Assembly (NCBI GenBank): GCA_027062365.1
Contig: JAMOTK010000038.1
Coordinates: 1-34,555, forward strand
Origin: Sulfurovum sp.
Lineage (GTDB): Bacteria; Campylobacterota; Campylobacteria; Campylobacterales; Sulfurovaceae
Direction of reading: 5' to 3'
Length of the DNA: 34,555 bases
Shown here: piece after piece, positions 8,133-28,152 of the stretch
Layout: the number at the start of each line of letters is the position of its first letter
Numbering within the stretch: the stretch's first letter is position 1
The notes under the pieces: generated by a model
Told to the model about the DNA's origin: nothing
The model's input: the letters and a program-made list of their open reading frames with translations, nothing else
Database searches by the model: none
Translations under genes and position numbers: made by a program

Positions 8133-9110
8133 ATGCTTATAGATGGACATGGACGCGAAGTAAATTATCTTCGTATATCAGTAACAGAACGTTGTAATTT
8201 TAGGTGTCAATATTGTATGCCTGAAAAGCCTTTTTCTTGGGTACCTAAAGAGAATTTACTCTCTTTTGAAGAGCTTTTTTTATTTGTAAAAGTAGCCATT
8301 GATAATGGAGTCAACAAAATCCGTCTTACAGGTGGAGAGCCTCTATTGCGTGAAAATCTTGATGGTTTTATCAAAATGATAAGTGATTATAAACCTGATA
8401 TTGATTTGGCTCTTACGACAAATGCCTATCTCCTCCCTCAATCAGCCCAACAACTCAAAGACGCAGGACTCAAACGCCTCAATATCTCTCTTGATTCTCT
8501 CAAAGCCGATGTGGCAGGAAAAATCGCAGGAAAAGATGTCTTAGGACAAGTCCTTAAAGGCATAGACAAAGCTCTTGAAGTAGGATTAAAAGTCAAAATC
8601 AATATGGTACCTCTCAAAGGGATTAATGATAATGAAATCTTAGATATTATGGAGTATTCTAAAGCAAAAAATATCAAAGTACGCTTTATAGAATACATGG
8701 AAAATGCTCATGCAGACCAAACTCTAAAAGGAATGCACGGCAAAGAAATTCTCTCCAAAGTCAAAGAAAGATACACGATTAGAGCCTTAGGAAGAGAGGG
8801 GGCAAGTCCATCGTTTAATTATCTCATAGAAGAGCTAGACTATGAATTTGGACTCATAGACCCACACAAACATGACTTTTGTGAAAACTGTAACCGTATC
8901 CGACTCACAGCCGAAGGCAATCTCATCCCTTGTCTATACTTTGATGAAGCATTAAGTATCGCAGAAGCCGTCAAAAAAGGCGATATAGAAGGGGCATCAA
9001 AAGTCCTAGCCAAAGTCCTCAAAGACAAACCCAAAGAAAATAGATGGAGCGAAGAAGAGCTAGAAGACAGAGAAATATCTACTAGGGCTTTTTATGAGAC
9101 TGGTGGGTAA
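8133..9110 (+). CDS. moaA: GTP 3',8-cyclase MoaA (molybdenum cofactor synthesis)
   Basis: A 325-residue radical-SAM enzyme that cyclises GTP to 3',8-cyclo-7,8-dihydro-GTP, the first step of molybdopterin synthesis. The N-terminal SAM cluster is C21-x3-C25-x2-C28 ([10 protein letters not shown]), and LTGGEPLLR follows. The C-terminal GTP-binding cluster is C250-x2-C253-x13-C267 ([18 protein letters not shown]). The chain ends in Gly-Gly, as the family does. A GGA precedes the ATG. It is monocistronic: the next gene has its own TATAAT box. The partner moeA is 4.5 kb away on the other strand. Confidence 0.96.
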
Positions 9111-9125
9111 TATATCGTTTTTGGA

Positions 9126-9131
9126 TATAAT
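9126..9131 (+). promoter_or_regulatory. -10 box of the DUF262/ATPase module
   Basis: TATAAT starts 15 bases after the moaA stop. AAAGGAA near 9157-9163 serves as ribosome binding site for the ATG at 9168. The module therefore seems to carry its own promoter. Confidence 0.55.
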
Positions 9132-9167
9132 TTTGAAGTGAAATAATCAAGAAAAAAAGGAAATAGT

Positions 9168-10793
9168 ATGGGTTTATCATTATCAGCAGAAAATAAAACA
9201 TTAATTAAGATATTTAAAATAGAAGAACAATATATAATTCCCCCATACCAAAGAGCTTATTCTTGGGAATATGATGAGTGTTTTACTTTATATAGTGATA
9301 TTATGGAAGCTTTTCAAGATAAAGATAGTCAAGAAGATTATTTTATAGGTAATATTGTAATTGCAAAGAGTTCATCAGATAAAGACAAGTTGGAAGTAAT
9401 AGATGGACAACAAAGACTTACAACACTGTTACTTTTTATCAAAGTATTATCAATCTACAATCCTGATCATAAAGCCCTTAAAGATTGTTTAGAGATAGAA
9501 GATTGGGAGAGTGATCAAATTTCTCCACGAATAGAATCTGAGATTTTTGAATCAGATGATAAAAAAAACTTAAAAGAGGTTTTATCTTTTGATAAAAAAA
9601 AATTTGAAAAAGTATTATTAACGTGCATAAATAAAAAGGGATTAATTAACGAAAAAAAATGTACCAATAGATTTGAAGCTAATATTATGTTTTTTTATAA
9701 TTGGATTAAGTTTTATACTCAAAAAAAAGAGCTTAGAGATTTTATTAAATATCTTTTAACCCAAGTTTATCTACTTCCAATAGAGTTAGAGGGACAAACA
9801 CCACAAGAGGCAAGAGAAAAGGCTTTGAAAATATTTGAAACTATTAATAATAGAGGGAGAGATTTATCTGATTCTGATATTTTTAAGGCGAGACTCTATG
9901 AAAAGGCAGGTAAATTACAAGAAGAAAAAGAGTTTATCTCTATTTGGAGAGAGTTTAAAAATCGTTGTGACTTACAAAATATTAAAATAGATGAAGTTTT
10001 TAGATTTTATTCTCATATTATTAGAGGTAAAAATAATATAACAGGAACAGAAATAAATCTAAGACATTTTTTTATAAGATATGAAAAGTCTCCATTTAAT
10101 GAAAAAAATTATAAAGAAATTTTAGAGGATTTATTTAAAGTTATTGAAGTAATTGAATTTATTAATCAAAAGAGTAATCAAAATACAGTTTTAGCTAAAT
10201 GGTTACAATTAATCATTAGATATACAAATCAATATCCTATGTTTTTATTGGTTGTTTATATATTTAAAAATGGGTTTGAAGATAAAAATATTATAGAATT
10301 TACAAAAAGCTTAGTTAGATATATATACTATAAAGGTGCTACTACTACTATTAAATTTGAAATTTTTAATATGATTTCTAATATTGTGCATAATAGAGAG
10401 ATAGATAAATATATTGAATCAGGTATAAAAATAGAGGATATTAATATCTCAGAAAGGCTTAAAAATGGTTATGCCCTTTTAAGTTTCTATATTATACAAG
10501 ATAAGGCAATATCTAACTATGATATTGATAAATTAGTAACTCATAAAGATAGTTTAAATTGGGATAAAAAAAATATAGAATTTCTACAAAATAGTTTAGG
10601 AAATATAATTATTTTAGATATTCCAAAGAAAAGTATTACTATTGATAAAAAAGCCATTTACTATAAAGAGTCAAAGCTTGAAAATATAAAAGAAATTATT
10701 CCCTTATTAGAATCTTTTACCTATCAAAATTTTTTAGAGAGAGATAAAGAACTTAAAAGTAATCTATTAAAATTTTTTAGAGGTGAATTATGA
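9168..10793 (+). CDS. DUF262 (GmrS-like) protein with degenerate DUF1524-like tail
   Basis: A 541-residue protein of the DUF262 family, which includes GmrSD, SspE and Campylobacter RloF, several of them anti-phage or modified-DNA restriction factors. N-terminal motifs are IPPYQRAYSW (24-33), YFIGNIVI (58-65) and the hallmark IDGQQRLTTL (78-87). FETINNRGRDLSDSDIFKA (223-241) is the second conserved block. The C terminus aligns by eye with DUF1524: SLGNIIIL at 476-483, then KKAIYYKES. The usual EHIxP stretch reads DKLVT (454-458), and no His precedes LGN, so the HNH nuclease looks inactive. Codons are strongly AT-biased: 11 of 60 bases are G or C at 10081-10140. The stop overlaps the next ATG (ATGA), so the pair is coupled. 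It is likely a defence-type ATP- or NTP-dependent sensor; the function is inferred. Confidence 0.85.
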   Translation: MGLSLSAENKTLIKIFKIEEQYIIPPYQRAYSWEYDECFTLYSDIMEAFQDKDSQEDYFIGNIVIAKSSSDKDKLEVIDGQQRLTTLLLFIKVLSIYNPDHKALKDCLEIEDWESDQISPRIESEIFESDDKKNLKEVLSFDKKKFEKVLLTCINKKGLINEKKCTNRFEANIMFFYNWIKFYTQKKELRDFIKYLLTQVYLLPIELEGQTPQEAREKALKIFETINNRGRDLSDSDIFKARLYEKAGKLQEEKEFISIWREFKNRCDLQNIKIDEVFRFYSHIIRGKNNITGTEINLRHFFIRYEKSPFNEKNYKEILEDLFKVIEVIEFINQKSNQNTVLAKWLQLIIRYTNQYPMFLLVVYIFKNGFEDKNIIEFTKSLVRYIYYKGATTTIKFEIFNMISNIVHNREIDKYIESGIKIEDINISERLKNGYALLSFYIIQDKAISNYDIDKLVTHKDSLNWDKKNIEFLQNSLGNIIILDIPKKSITIDKKAIYYKESKLENIKEIIPLLESFTYQNFLERDKELKSNLLKFFRGEL

Positions 10794-12181
10794 TAAAAAA
10801 TCTTACTCTTGAAAGTTTTAAAGCTCACAAAGAGTTAAAAATTAATTTTAATGAAAAAAGTTTTTTACTTTATGGAGATAATGGAGCAGGTAAAAGTTCT
10901 ATCTATGATGCTTTAAAATTAGAATTTTTTAGAAGTAAAATTGAAGATAATATAGAGTCTAGTGATATAGCACAAGAGACTTCACAAGCAGATAAAGATA
11001 ATTTTTTCAAAAAGTATAATAATAGCATTGTAGATAATGATTTTAATATAGTATTGGAAAAAGATACAACTAAAGAGTATCAAGTTTTTATGTTAAATTT
11101 AGAAGATACAGATTTTGATAAATATTTAAATTTTAATACTCTAATAAGTAATGTGTATTTTGATATTTCTAGTATATATAATTATGATGAGATTGAATCT
11201 CATATAAATAAACTTTTGATGAACTTTAAAGAAGATATAATAATTAGAATTGATAGAGAAGATTTTTCTATTAGAATTACAGACACTAAAAGAAAGTTAG
11301 AAGAAATCAAAGACATTAAACAATATTTCAATGAAGCTAAATTAAATTTAGTAGTTTTTGCTATACTTTTTTCTATGATTGAACTCTATCAAGATGAGAA
11401 TAAACATAGAGTATTGATTTTTGATGATTTTATTACAAGTCTTGATATGTCCAATAGAACTTTTTTGATGAAGCATATTTTAGAAACTTTTGATAGTAAT
11501 TTCCAAATTATTATTTTGACTCATAATGTATATTTTTATAATTTGATTATCTATTTAGTAAATGATATTTATAAAGTAAAAGATAGTTGGCAATATGCTA
11601 ATTTATATGAGATAGGTGATGGGCATAAATTATATATGAATGATGATTTAATTAAATTACCTGATTTAAGAAAAGATGTTTATGGACAAAATCCAAATTA
11701 TCAAACTATTGGAAATCAATTAAGACAAAAGTTTGAGAGGTTACTTTATGAGTTTTCTAAAATTTTAATGATTGGTGGAGTTGAAGAGAGTAATAAAATA
11801 TTAGAAATTTTAGATAAAAAAGAGAATCTTTATTTATTGAGATATGAATATAGAGATGCTAAAAATAAGAAGCAATTCATATTTAAAAATAGTAATCATT
11901 TAGTTCTTGAAATTGAAAAACTTATAAATGAAAATAAAAGTATTGAAGATATAAAAAATTTAATATCTAAATATAGTGAAGTTGATAATTTACTTCCTGA
12001 TATTATTAATATAATTAGAGAGTTAAAGTTATATCAAAAAGTTTCAATGCACTCTCTATCACATGGACAAATGGGACAAAATCCAATTAGTCAAAAAGAG
12101 ATTGAAAAATCTTTGGAATTATTAGAGTATTTTCAAGATAAGATGAAAGATTTAGTTAATAAAAAAGTAGATGGTTTATAA
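10790..12181 (+). CDS. SMC/RecF-like AAA (ABC-fold) ATPase, partner of the DUF262 protein
   Basis: A 463-residue ATPase. Walker A is GDNGAGKS (29-36). A signature-like NEAKLN (181-186) sits before an aliphatic helix. Walker B is VLIFDD (208-213), followed by the D-loop SLD (217-219) and the switch histidine in LTHN (243-246). The insert between Walker A and the signature is only about 145 residues with no long coiled coil, unlike Rad50 or RecN, and similar to AAA15/OLD-type and Septu PtuA ATPases. Residues about 290-463 form an extra helical domain containing HSLSHGQMG and ending in a long helix. No Toprim or HNH motif is seen. It starts within the DUF262 stop and ends one base before queE. 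Composition is AT-rich like its partner. Confidence 0.85.
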   Translation: MIKNLTLESFKAHKELKINFNEKSFLLYGDNGAGKSSIYDALKLEFFRSKIEDNIESSDIAQETSQADKDNFFKKYNNSIVDNDFNIVLEKDTTKEYQVFMLNLEDTDFDKYLNFNTLISNVYFDISSIYNYDEIESHINKLLMNFKEDIIIRIDREDFSIRITDTKRKLEEIKDIKQYFNEAKLNLVVFAILFSMIELYQDENKHRVLIFDDFITSLDMSNRTFLMKHILETFDSNFQIIILTHNVYFYNLIIYLVNDIYKVKDSWQYANLYEIGDGHKLYMNDDLIKLPDLRKDVYGQNPNYQTIGNQLRQKFERLLYEFSKILMIGGVEESNKILEILDKKENLYLLRYEYRDAKNKKQFIFKNSNHLVLEIEKLINENKSIEDIKNLISKYSEVDNLLPDIINIIRELKLYQKVSMHSLSHGQMGQNPISQKEIEKSLELLEYFQDKMKDLVNKKVDGL

Positions 12182-12940
12182 ATGTTCTACCTAACAGAAA
12201 AATTTTTCTCTATTCAAGGTGAGGGTAAATATGCAGGTATTCCTTCTTACTTTTTACGTACGGGAGGGTGTAACCTTTCTTGTGCTGGATTTAAATCGTC
12301 CTATCATGTAGAGGGCAAAGAGAAGATGGGGTGTGATACTTATTTTGCTGTAGATAGTCACTTTAGCCCTTCATGGGAGAAGGTAGAAGATGCGTCTATA
12401 CTTATCAAACATCTAAAAGAAGAATTTCATAAAATTGGCTATTTACCTCAAATGGTGATTACAGGGGGTGAACCTTTGATGTATTACCAAGACAAAGTAT
12501 TTTATGCTGTTATTTCGTGGCTTGTATCCCAAAATATTACGGTGACTTTTGAAACCAATGGCACAATAGAGATAGACTTTGAAGCGTATCCACTCTATAA
12601 AGAGACTATTTTTGCCCTCTCTATCAAATTGGCCAATTCAGCTGAACCCCAAGTGAAGCGTATCAAACATAAAGCTATTGGCAATATTATTGAGTATAGT
12701 AAAGATAGTTTTTTTAAATTTACCATAGACAAAGCCTTGACCCAAAGTACAGCCTACCAAGAGATAAAAGAGATTACCCAAAGTTTTACAAATCCCTCTA
12801 TCTACTGTATGCCAGTAGGGGAGAGTCGTGCTAATATTTGGCACAATGACAGAGCAGTATTTGAATTTTGTATGCAACATGGATTTAACTATAGCGATAG
12901 GCTTCATATACGGGTTTTTGATACGACACAAGGGGTATAA
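12182..12940 (+). CDS. queE: 7-carboxy-7-deazaguanine synthase QueE, long-insertion variant
   Basis: A 252-residue radical-SAM enzyme that contracts 6-carboxytetrahydropterin to 7-carboxy-7-deazaguanine for queuosine. [11 protein letters not shown] and the cluster region are clear. The cysteines are C30-x3-C34-x16-C51, instead of the canonical CX3CX2C. The third Cys is in the usual GCDT context, so the change is a 14-residue insertion inside the cluster loop, a variation known from other QueE proteins. ITGGEPL follows. The ATG directly follows the ATPase stop, and no Shine-Dalgarno sequence lies in the preceding 20 bases, so translation probably depends on coupling to the upstream gene. Confidence 0.92.
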
Positions 12941-21320: not shown

Positions 21321-21593
21321 TTATTTCCAAAATAATTTAGAATGACTACCAACACGCGTTAAAGCCAATTCTAAAATATCAGTTTCAATTCTATAAATCA
21401 ATAGTAAATTAGGTTTAAGATGACACTCTCTACAGCCTAAATAATTACCGATGAGTTGATGGTCTTTATATTTTGTATCTAAACTTTCCCCACTAGCTAA
21501 AAGGATAATGACTTCTTTGAGTATAGATTTATCTGTATGAGATGATTTCTTATAGTCTTTTTTAAAGCTACTGGTTCTAAAAATAGCATACAC
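21321..21593 (-). CDS. YafQ-family (RelE/ParE superfamily) toxin
   Basis: A 90-residue protein with the RelE-like fold pattern: RTSSFKKDYKK at the N terminus, then the YafQ block LKPNLLLIYRIETDILELALTRVGSHSKLF. The C-terminal GSHSxLF matches YafQ-type ribosome-dependent mRNA endonucleases. YafQ's catalytic histidines can be sought in KYKDHQL, ECHLKP and GSHSKLF. The start is GTG at 21593, the base after the antitoxin stop, so translation is coupled and toxin output is held below antitoxin output. Confidence 0.88.
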   Translation of the reverse strand: MYAIFRTSSFKKDYKKSSHTDKSILKEVIILLASGESLDTKYKDHQLIGNYLGCRECHLKPNLLLIYRIETDILELALTRVGSHSKLFWK

Positions 21594-21875
21594 CTAATTG
21601 TCCAAATCATCAAACAAATCATCTACGCTTTTAAATGTCTGACCTTTTTTTGCTTTTAGTTCATCTAGTGCTTTACTTGTTTCTTGATTAGGGGTTTTCA
21701 TACTAAAATTGTTAAAAATATTGTCTTCTTTTACATTGTTTAAGCTATCAAACTCTTTTTTATTTTTATTCTGTTGAAGATTTTTTAAAATAAATTCAGA
21801 AAATGCTTTTATATCAGATTTGCATTCATTGATAAAAAACTGTTCTATTTTTTGGTTATTTATTTCTATAATCAT
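21594..21875 (-). CDS. Antitoxin of the YafQ-type module
   Basis: A 93-residue acidic protein encoded directly before the toxin. The C-terminal part (SKALDELKAKKGQTFKSVDDLFDDLD) is the toxin-wrapping type of tail seen in antitoxins of RelE-superfamily toxins. The N-terminal part (MIIEINNQKIEQFF...) may be the dimer/DNA-binding portion, but I do not recognise a RelB or Phd/DinJ fold with certainty. AAAGGAAC precedes the ATG. Confidence 0.8.
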   Translation of the reverse strand: MIIEINNQKIEQFFINECKSDIKAFSEFILKNLQQNKNKKEFDSLNNVKEDNIFNNFSMKTPNQETSKALDELKAKKGQTFKSVDDLFDDLDN

Positions 21876-27418: not shown

Positions 27419-27724
27419 ATGCAAGTAGCTCTAAATATTGGAACTATTAATATCAATGACCAAGAGGTCGCTAGGTTTATTCAAAACAAAAATGTTGATG
27501 AGATAAAAGCACTCTTTGTAAATTTTTTAAAAAATCAAATCACAACCCAGCAAACAGCCGACACTTTAGATAGCCGACTTAAAAATTTAAAATTGGTCAA
27601 TCCCCAAAAGAGAAAACGCGTGAGAGAGGCTTTGGACTCACTCAACAAAAAGTTAGAACCATTGAATAACATCAATATAGAGCTAGAAAAAAATAGATAT
27701 CTAAAAGAAAAATTTTCACTATGA
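27419..27724 (+). CDS. Antitoxin of the second PIN module
   Basis: A 101-residue, mostly helical, basic protein upstream of a PIN toxin and overlapping it by four bases (ATGA). The N-terminal half is predicted mixed (ALNIGTININDQEVARFI). The C-terminal half is Lys/Leu-rich and helical, with RKRVREALDSLNKKLEPL. No standard DNA-binding fold is recognised. The role rests on position and coupling. Confidence 0.72.
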   Translation: MQVALNIGTININDQEVARFIQNKNVDEIKALFVNFLKNQITTQQTADTLDSRLKNLKLVNPQKRKRVREALDSLNKKLEPLNNINIELEKNRYLKEKFSL

Positions 27725-28152
27725 GCCTAAAGATATACATTGATACCAATATTTATCTCAACTCTATACTTAACCGAGATAAAGAGATTTCAAAAAAAGT
27801 TTTTAGCTTTCTCGCAGGGGTAGATGTAGAAGTTTATATGAACGATATATCTATTATCAATATCCACTATATTATTAGAAAATCACTTGAAAGAAAAAAG
27901 GTGATAGAGGAGTTACGAACCATACAAAAAGAGAACTATTTAGTTTCAGTTGATGAACAAATTATAGAGAATGCTCTTGATAGTGAATTTAAAGATTTTG
28001 AAGATGCTGTTCAATACTTTTCTGCCAAAAAGATAGACGCTGAACTGATTATTACAGATAATATCAAAGATTTTAAACTTTCTAATATTCGTGTTATCTA
28101 TGCAAAAGATTTTTATAAAGAGTATATTGAACCAAGAGGAGAGGAGAATTAA
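27721..28152 (+). CDS. PIN-domain toxin (second module)
   Basis: A 143-residue PIN-domain protein. Acidic residues are D8 (YIDTNIYLNS), D92 and D95 (KDFEDAVQY), and D113/D117 (TDNIKDFKL). The usual second-position Glu is replaced in SIINIHYIIRK by Asn/His, as in a known PIN subfamily. Metal coordination may therefore rest on the remaining acids. It converges on glnS with 13 bases between the stop codons. Confidence 0.86.
   Translation: MSLKIYIDTNIYLNSILNRDKEISKKVFSFLAGVDVEVYMNDISIINIHYIIRKSLERKKVIEELRTIQKENYLVSVDEQIIENALDSEFKDFEDAVQYFSAKKIDAELIITDNIKDFKLSNIRVIYAKDFYKEYIEPRGEEN

Follow-up and report, generated by a model that had tools for sequence, protein, structure and literature searches.

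Background

Enzymes of the DUF262 family are taken to be sensors of modified DNA in which the protein's own HNH domain does the DNA cutting. The family is recognised by the motif set QR, DGQQR and FxxxN (PMC12137116). DUF262 proteins without a DUF1524 region were found in the multi-gene defence systems Menshen, Dazbog and PD-T4-2, and the partner in Menshen is an OLD nuclease (PMC10952713). An RNase-type domain was earlier linked to DUF262 by computation in haloarchaeal VNG7073, where HEPN is fused to DUF262-HNH (PMC3710099).

The anticodon nucleases RloC and PrrC contain the conserved triad Arg-x3-Glu-x36-52-His, often with a Ser before the His (Davidov and Kaufmann, PMC2610378), and each of the three triad residues was found to be essential for tRNA cleavage by RloC (PMC2610378). 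The anticodon-nuclease domains of both proteins have been placed in the HEPN superfamily (Anantharaman et al., PMC3710099). In the family described here, the loss of the cutting site in one clade of DUF262 proteins was found to coincide exactly with the gain of an ATPase that carries an RNase-like triad.

Gene pair, insertion site and base composition

The analysed window, a stretch of 34,555 nucleotides of Sulfurovum sp. DNA, contained a real, intact and foreign gene pair at positions 9168-12181 of the + strand. The first gene (9168..10793, 541 aa) overlapped the second (10790..12181, 463 aa) by ATGA, as the sequence-only reading had described, and its naming of a DUF262 protein followed by an SMC-like ATPase was borne out by Pfam, with PF03235 (GmrSD_N) at E 1.2e-34 in gene 1 and AAA_23 at E 2.8e-12 and SMC_N at E 3e-12 in gene 2. 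The position between moaA and queE was likewise found to be correct; moaA (8133..9110, + strand; TIGR02666, E 9e-108, 360 bits) was present on one side, and queE-like (12182..12940, + strand) and queD-like genes were present on the other. The ATG of the queE-like gene was found immediately 3′ of the ATPase stop, and no terminator-like site was found between the ATPase gene and queE.

The leader between the moaA stop and the DUF262 gene (9111..9167, + strand; 57 bases, read from the sequence) contained an AGGA ribosome-binding site at 9158-9161 and an isolated TATAAT at 9126-9131 without a -35 partner. The earlier claim of one promoter shared by both genes was not upheld, since the consensus scan gave promoter-like sites near the chance level (32 vs 25.2 +/- 5.8 expected from shuffled sequence) and no consensus promoter on the + strand of the moaA-DUF262 gap. 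The pair was found to be AT-richer than its neighbours, as had been claimed, with a GC content of 0.237 in gene 1 and 0.216 in gene 2 against a mean of 0.377 (sd 0.023, lowest 0.325) across the window's remaining 20 genes; at third codon positions the values were 0.140 and 0.129 against 0.293 (sd 0.050) in the same 20 genes.

The moaA and queE genes were adjacent in 5/5 same-genus genomes read. The moaA stop and the queE start overlapped by 1 bp (TGATG or TAATG) in four of these genomes, and a short spacer was found in the fifth. The ATPase was found in 0/10 other same-genus genomes of the phylum-wide sample.

Two further elements were found in the window. A YafQ-type toxin gene at 21324-21875 on the - strand (PF15738, E 5.8e-29) was accompanied by a small partner ORF upstream, which on these matches is a probable type II toxin-antitoxin pair. 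A second toxin-antitoxin pair is probably formed at 27419-28152 on the + strand by a PIN-domain gene (PF13470, E 3.9e-13) and the 101-aa ORF that overlaps it. PtuA-like ATPases were found elsewhere in the genome of the window (G000:C31:22590-23330 and G000:C22:108083-108787).

The DUF262 protein

Gene 1 was found to contain the DGQQR nucleotide-pocket motif at residues 79-83 (9402..9416, + strand), and the other DUF262 motifs were also intact, as Y27-Q28-R29 and F223-E-T-I-N227. The QR, DGQQR and FxxxN motifs, the last through its residues F223 and N227, were invariant in alignment A3 (15 paired DUF262 proteins) and in alignment A5 (39 DUF262 proteins, 29 unpaired and 10 paired).

The region of residues about 440-541 (10485..10790, + strand) was found to be a degenerate DUF1524/HNH region in which D454-K455-L456 replaces E-H-I/V, so that K455 is found where the HNH His stands in unpaired relatives. 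The E-H-[I/V] motif was conserved in 29/29 unpaired proteins of A5 and in 0/10 paired ones, and GmrSD_C (PF07510) matched 29/39 proteins of A5 and 0/15 paired proteins of A3. Most of the DUF1524 region was deleted at L036, where the pair was still kept. The HNH catalytic site is lost in every paired DUF262 protein examined.

The AlphaFold2 model of gene 1 was confident across the whole length (pLDDT 92.1). It matched DndI (9jfl) with Z 18.7 over 481 aa, BrxU with Z 12.3, and SspE with Z 20.3 and a large rmsd. As the predicted fold stays like that of DndI and SspE as far as the C-terminus, the C-terminal DUF1524 fold is probably still present in gene 1.

The ATPase and its C-terminal domain

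Gene 2 was found to encode an SMC/Rad50-type ABC ATPase with a C-terminal helical domain, and its ATP motifs are intact. The Walker A motif GDNGAGKSS occupied residues 29-37 (10874..10900, + strand), with G, N, G, G, K, S and S invariant in 15 pair ATPases. It was followed by the presence of N-E-A-K at residues 181-184 (11330..11341, + strand) at the ABC signature position, where hhalign paired FNEAKL of gene 2 with LSEGEK of the AAA_13 proteins. The Walker B residues D212-D213 with the D-loop S-L-D at 217-219 (11423..11446, + strand) and the H-loop T244-H245 (11519..11524, + strand) were invariant in alignment A4. A truncated or decayed ATPase in the window was rejected, as close relatives have 462-477 aa and all motifs.

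The C-terminal domain was found to contain R312-x3-E316 (11723..11737, + strand), the first half of a putative ribonuclease triad, followed by the presence of S424-H425 (12059..12064, + strand; E-x108-H), which would supply its last residue. The triad residues are present without exception, R-x3-E being invariant in 15/15 pair ATPases and H being found in 15/15, and the preceding Ser was found in 14/15 (T in L060). The spacing from E to H was 58-113 across the pair ATPases. R and E of R-x3-E, and H, were the only invariant residues among 163 well-filled C-terminal columns of the 15 ATPases.

In the profile comparison with AAA_13 (RloC/PrrC-like), hhalign gave 98.0% and E 1.6e-13, and the alignment, which ended beyond R-x3-E, paired both of these residues with their AAA_13 equivalents. 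The profile of the C-terminal domain only gave a non-significant match to RloC C-termini (E 0.41, few template rows). The C-terminal domain alone had no Pfam match and no PDB sequence match, and no HEPN match was found for it by sequence or among solved structures. No zinc-hook CXXC was found in 14/15 pair ATPases, and the single one of L046 sits at residue 56. The AlphaFold2 model of gene 2 had a pLDDT of 71.9 overall, with medium confidence in the C-terminal domain; the head domain (residues 1-276) matched SMC3 and Rad50 heads with Z 14-17, and the VIA-align structure comparison covered in effect these residues. On the strength of the conserved residues, the effector is likely to be the ATPase's own C-terminal RloC/PrrC-like triad.

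Occurrence, mobility and co-evolution

The phylum-wide profile search for the ATPase covered 397 genomes, and 16 of them were found to contain it. In every complete copy above 400 bits the ATPase gene was preceded by a DUF262 gene like gene 1; two copies were interrupted by contig ends and one was decayed. Further pairs were found by the GTDB scan in Poseidonibacter, Sulfurovum, Sulfurimonas (the decayed one), a Sphingobacteriales genome, Prevotella and another Prevotellaceae, along with another Campylobacterales genome that contained two pairs in tandem. Across Campylobacterota and Bacteroidota the gene order was constant and the overlap was nearly always present, and the sites were unrelated.

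The 16 paired members of a 43-protein DUF262 tree fell into one clade (SH-aLRT 100), and the paired or unpaired state changed only once on that tree. The ATPase was found directly 3′ of every DUF262 gene of this clade, usually overlapping, and about 110 DUF262 proteins of lower score from the fetched loci were not directly followed by it. The DUF262 protein of the window grouped with one Sulfurovum and one Sphingobacteriales protein, crossing phyla. The partner distance matrices were correlated (r 0.74; Mantel, 0/5000 permutations) and the two trees mirrored each other.

The genes next to relatives of the pair were topA/bioB, trpA/dcd, trpB, galE, uvrA, tilS and Tn7-like tns genes (uvrA and trpA named from sequence reading; trpB, galE and tilS narrowed down by reading from a broader Pfam match; all others by Pfam), so that the relatives are not always found beside moaA and queE, as a housekeeping gene of that operon would be. 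Tn7-like TnsA/TnsB/TniB/TniQ genes adjoined the pair in two genomes (L036 and L037 of G327; L039 of G369), and G327 contained two identical copies of the pair at different places. Most Campylobacterota loci contained the pair among housekeeping genes and not in a recognisable defence island. The tblastn search of the ATPase against plasmids and phages gave no match, the DUF262 matches listed in plasmids were all less than 30% identical, and no pair was found in the fetched IMG/VR loci; carriage of the pair by phages or plasmids was rejected on these results.

The foreign GC content, the Tn7-like cargo, the cross-phylum clade and the absence from 10 other same-genus genomes together mark the pair as mobile. 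The pair is firmly established as a conserved mobile two-gene module, and the sequence-only reading was right to treat it as a genuine unit, which was found to be spread horizontally and not tied to moaA/queE.

Several individual loci were also noted. At L035, L041, L046, L054, L055, L057 and in the window the pair lay only a few bases from, or overlapped, the gene that follows in the same direction, in many cases a core gene, and no mobility gene was in view at these junctions. Two different tandem pairs were found at L057:5577-11687, directly followed by an overlapping trpB-like gene, and the E-to-H spacing of the second ATPase was shortened to E-x58-H. The Walker A region of the ATPase was lost by internal deletion at L059:8665-9501 (= L042), where the DUF262 gene was intact. 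ATPases of the compact subgroup were found directly upstream of the tRNA wobble-modification genes queE (window 12182) and tilS (L035:624), which, with two cases only, may be chance.

Sister ATPases in restriction-modification-like operons

The sister ATPases (L044, L045, L047, L249, L250 and L251) form the other readable lineage of the phylum-wide search, present in six genomes, and in 6/6 cases lay directly behind two large genes, one of HKD-helicase type and one of methylase type. The methylase was of the Eco57I type in the two cases checked by Pfam (L044 and L045), and the helicase contained PLD/HKD and SNF2-type domains in the one checked. The R-x3-E...S-H form was shared by the sister ATPases where intact. 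The sister system was compared with Hma, which has a DUF499 ATPase as its basis (PMC12839542), and this assignment was dropped in favour of an HKD-SNF2 helicase with an Eco57I-type methylase. Judged by their gene content, the sister loci represent a restriction-modification-like operon, possibly with an RNase back-up. This linkage of ATPase and restriction genes parallels PrrC, which is guarded by the EcoprrI restriction enzyme.

Proposed mechanism and alternative explanations

The pair is likely to be an anti-phage defence system. We give somewhat more than even credence to a mobile two-component defence module in which a disarmed GmrSD/DndI-type DNA sensor gates a PrrC/RloC-like ribonuclease ATPase. 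The DUF262 protein, its HNH site lost, would act as an NTP-dependent sensor like GmrSD, DndI or SspE and respond to DNA that is invading or modified, a role assigned to it because its relatives sense invading DNA. The signal would be handed to the co-translated SMC/Rad50-like ATPase, presumably through physical contact of the two proteins, and nucleotide-driven dimerisation of the ATPase would activate a C-terminal ribonuclease with a site of the RloC/PrrC type, Arg-x3-Glu...His. The predicted outcome is the cleavage of RNA, most likely in tRNA anticodon loops, by which translation and then the phage would be stopped. Several features count against this reading, namely the E-to-H spacing of the pair ATPases, which exceeds the 36-52 of RloC, the replacement of the ABC signature by N-E-A-K, the negative sequence and profile comparisons of the C-terminal domain taken alone, the medium confidence of its model, and the setting of most Campylobacterota pairs among housekeeping genes. 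The change of sites suggests that the alarm was rewired from cutting of invader DNA to translation shut-off. A wider claim is put forward more tentatively, that a type IV restriction-type sensor without DNA cleavage triggers RNA (tRNA) cleavage and that the ATPase-RNase lineage is an exchangeable effector which also serves restriction-modification-like operons.

An unlikely alternative with some merit is a toxin-antitoxin system, with the ATPase as toxin and the DUF262 protein acting chiefly as inhibitor or antitoxin; the module would stabilise mobile DNA, and protection from phages would be secondary or absent. The overlap of two genes with the regulator in front, the Tn7-like cargo and the tandem copies are consistent with it, and PrrC is kept silent by its restriction enzyme (PMC2610378, PMC3710099); however, the full NTPase pocket and the large DndI-like fold of the DUF262 protein exceed the needs of an antitoxin, and the restriction-modification-like genes linked to the sister ATPases also argue against it.

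It is rather improbable that R, E and H are structural residues, with the ATPase regulating while bound to DNA or sensing DNA ends, and with a DNase activity of either protein, or a host nuclease, as effector. The three invariant polar residues in the RloC arrangement, in an otherwise free domain, speak against this, as do the loss of the HNH site and the lack of matches to TOPRIM, REase and HNH families in both proteins, whereas the SMC/Rad50-like head domain, the spacing unlike RloC and the fact that Pfam recognises no RNase domain would agree with it. A housekeeping or tRNA-metabolism accessory role in the moaA/queE operon is highly improbable and was rejected by synteny and GC. The pair does lie inside the operon and abut the queE start, and one relative adjoins tilS, but the same junction is found without the pair in same-genus genomes, the GC is foreign and the neighbours elsewhere are unrelated.

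Comparison with known systems

The pair was not covered by any PADLOC 2.0.0 model, a check proposed by the sequence-only reading; the DUF262 half was recognised as HEC-06/Orf5-type only, and the ATPase half was matched only weakly. MADS was rejected as the closest system, as mad3 was the best PADLOC match for several relatives with only 36-48 bits, and no paper of use was found for it. No pair of DUF262 with an ABC ATPase, HEPN or anticodon nuclease was found in the full-text searches, which covered open-access papers.

The pair was found to differ from both Septu and GmrSD, as had been proposed. Septu (PtuA and PtuB) also consists of two genes and has a compact SMC-like ATPase with an alignable Walker A region, whereas PtuA relatives are without the C-terminal R/E/H domain and keep L-S-D-G and D-E, and the pair has no HNH gene as partner. 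A Septu-like reading was rejected, the PtuA profile aligning only at Walker A and lacking the C-terminal domain. Gene 1 resembles GmrSD, BrxU, SspE and DndI in its three DUF262 motifs and whole-length fold, and the window family differs from them in the lost HNH site, with no GmrSD_C in the 15 paired proteins, and in its constant ATPase partner.

GrwAB of Vibrio cholerae is likewise a two-gene DUF262-based system in which GrwA contains DUF262 and DUF1524 (PMC12137116), whereas GrwB is a second DUF262 protein and not an ABC ATPase, and the HNH of GrwA is active and required. Menshen, Dazbog and PD-T4-2 are similar in having a DUF262 protein without DUF1524 in a multi-gene setting. Menshen is set apart by description, as OLD proteins carry TOPRIM, for which gene 2 gave no hit at E up to 1. 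VNG7073 shares the joining of an RNase-type domain with DUF262, but the protein described in PMC3710099 is a fusion that includes an HNH domain and has no ABC ATPase.

PrrC and RloC were found to be alike in the N-terminal ABC ATPase and the C-terminal R-x3-E...(S)H, and PrrC with EcoprrI is alike in that an ATPase of this type is linked to a DNA sensor of the restriction type. Gene 2 differs from them in the longer E-to-H spacing, the N-E-A-K signature and the absence of a zinc hook. The pair also differs in being without a type I restriction-modification system, the partner being a DUF262 protein; the window pair was linked to no type I locus, its neighbours being moaA and queE. The family offers a natural test of DUF262 as a stand-alone sensor and of the wiring of a DNA alarm to translation shut-off, and the idea behind PrrC, in which a DNA restriction enzyme keeps guard over an RNase, would be widened to a compact, mobile two-gene form.
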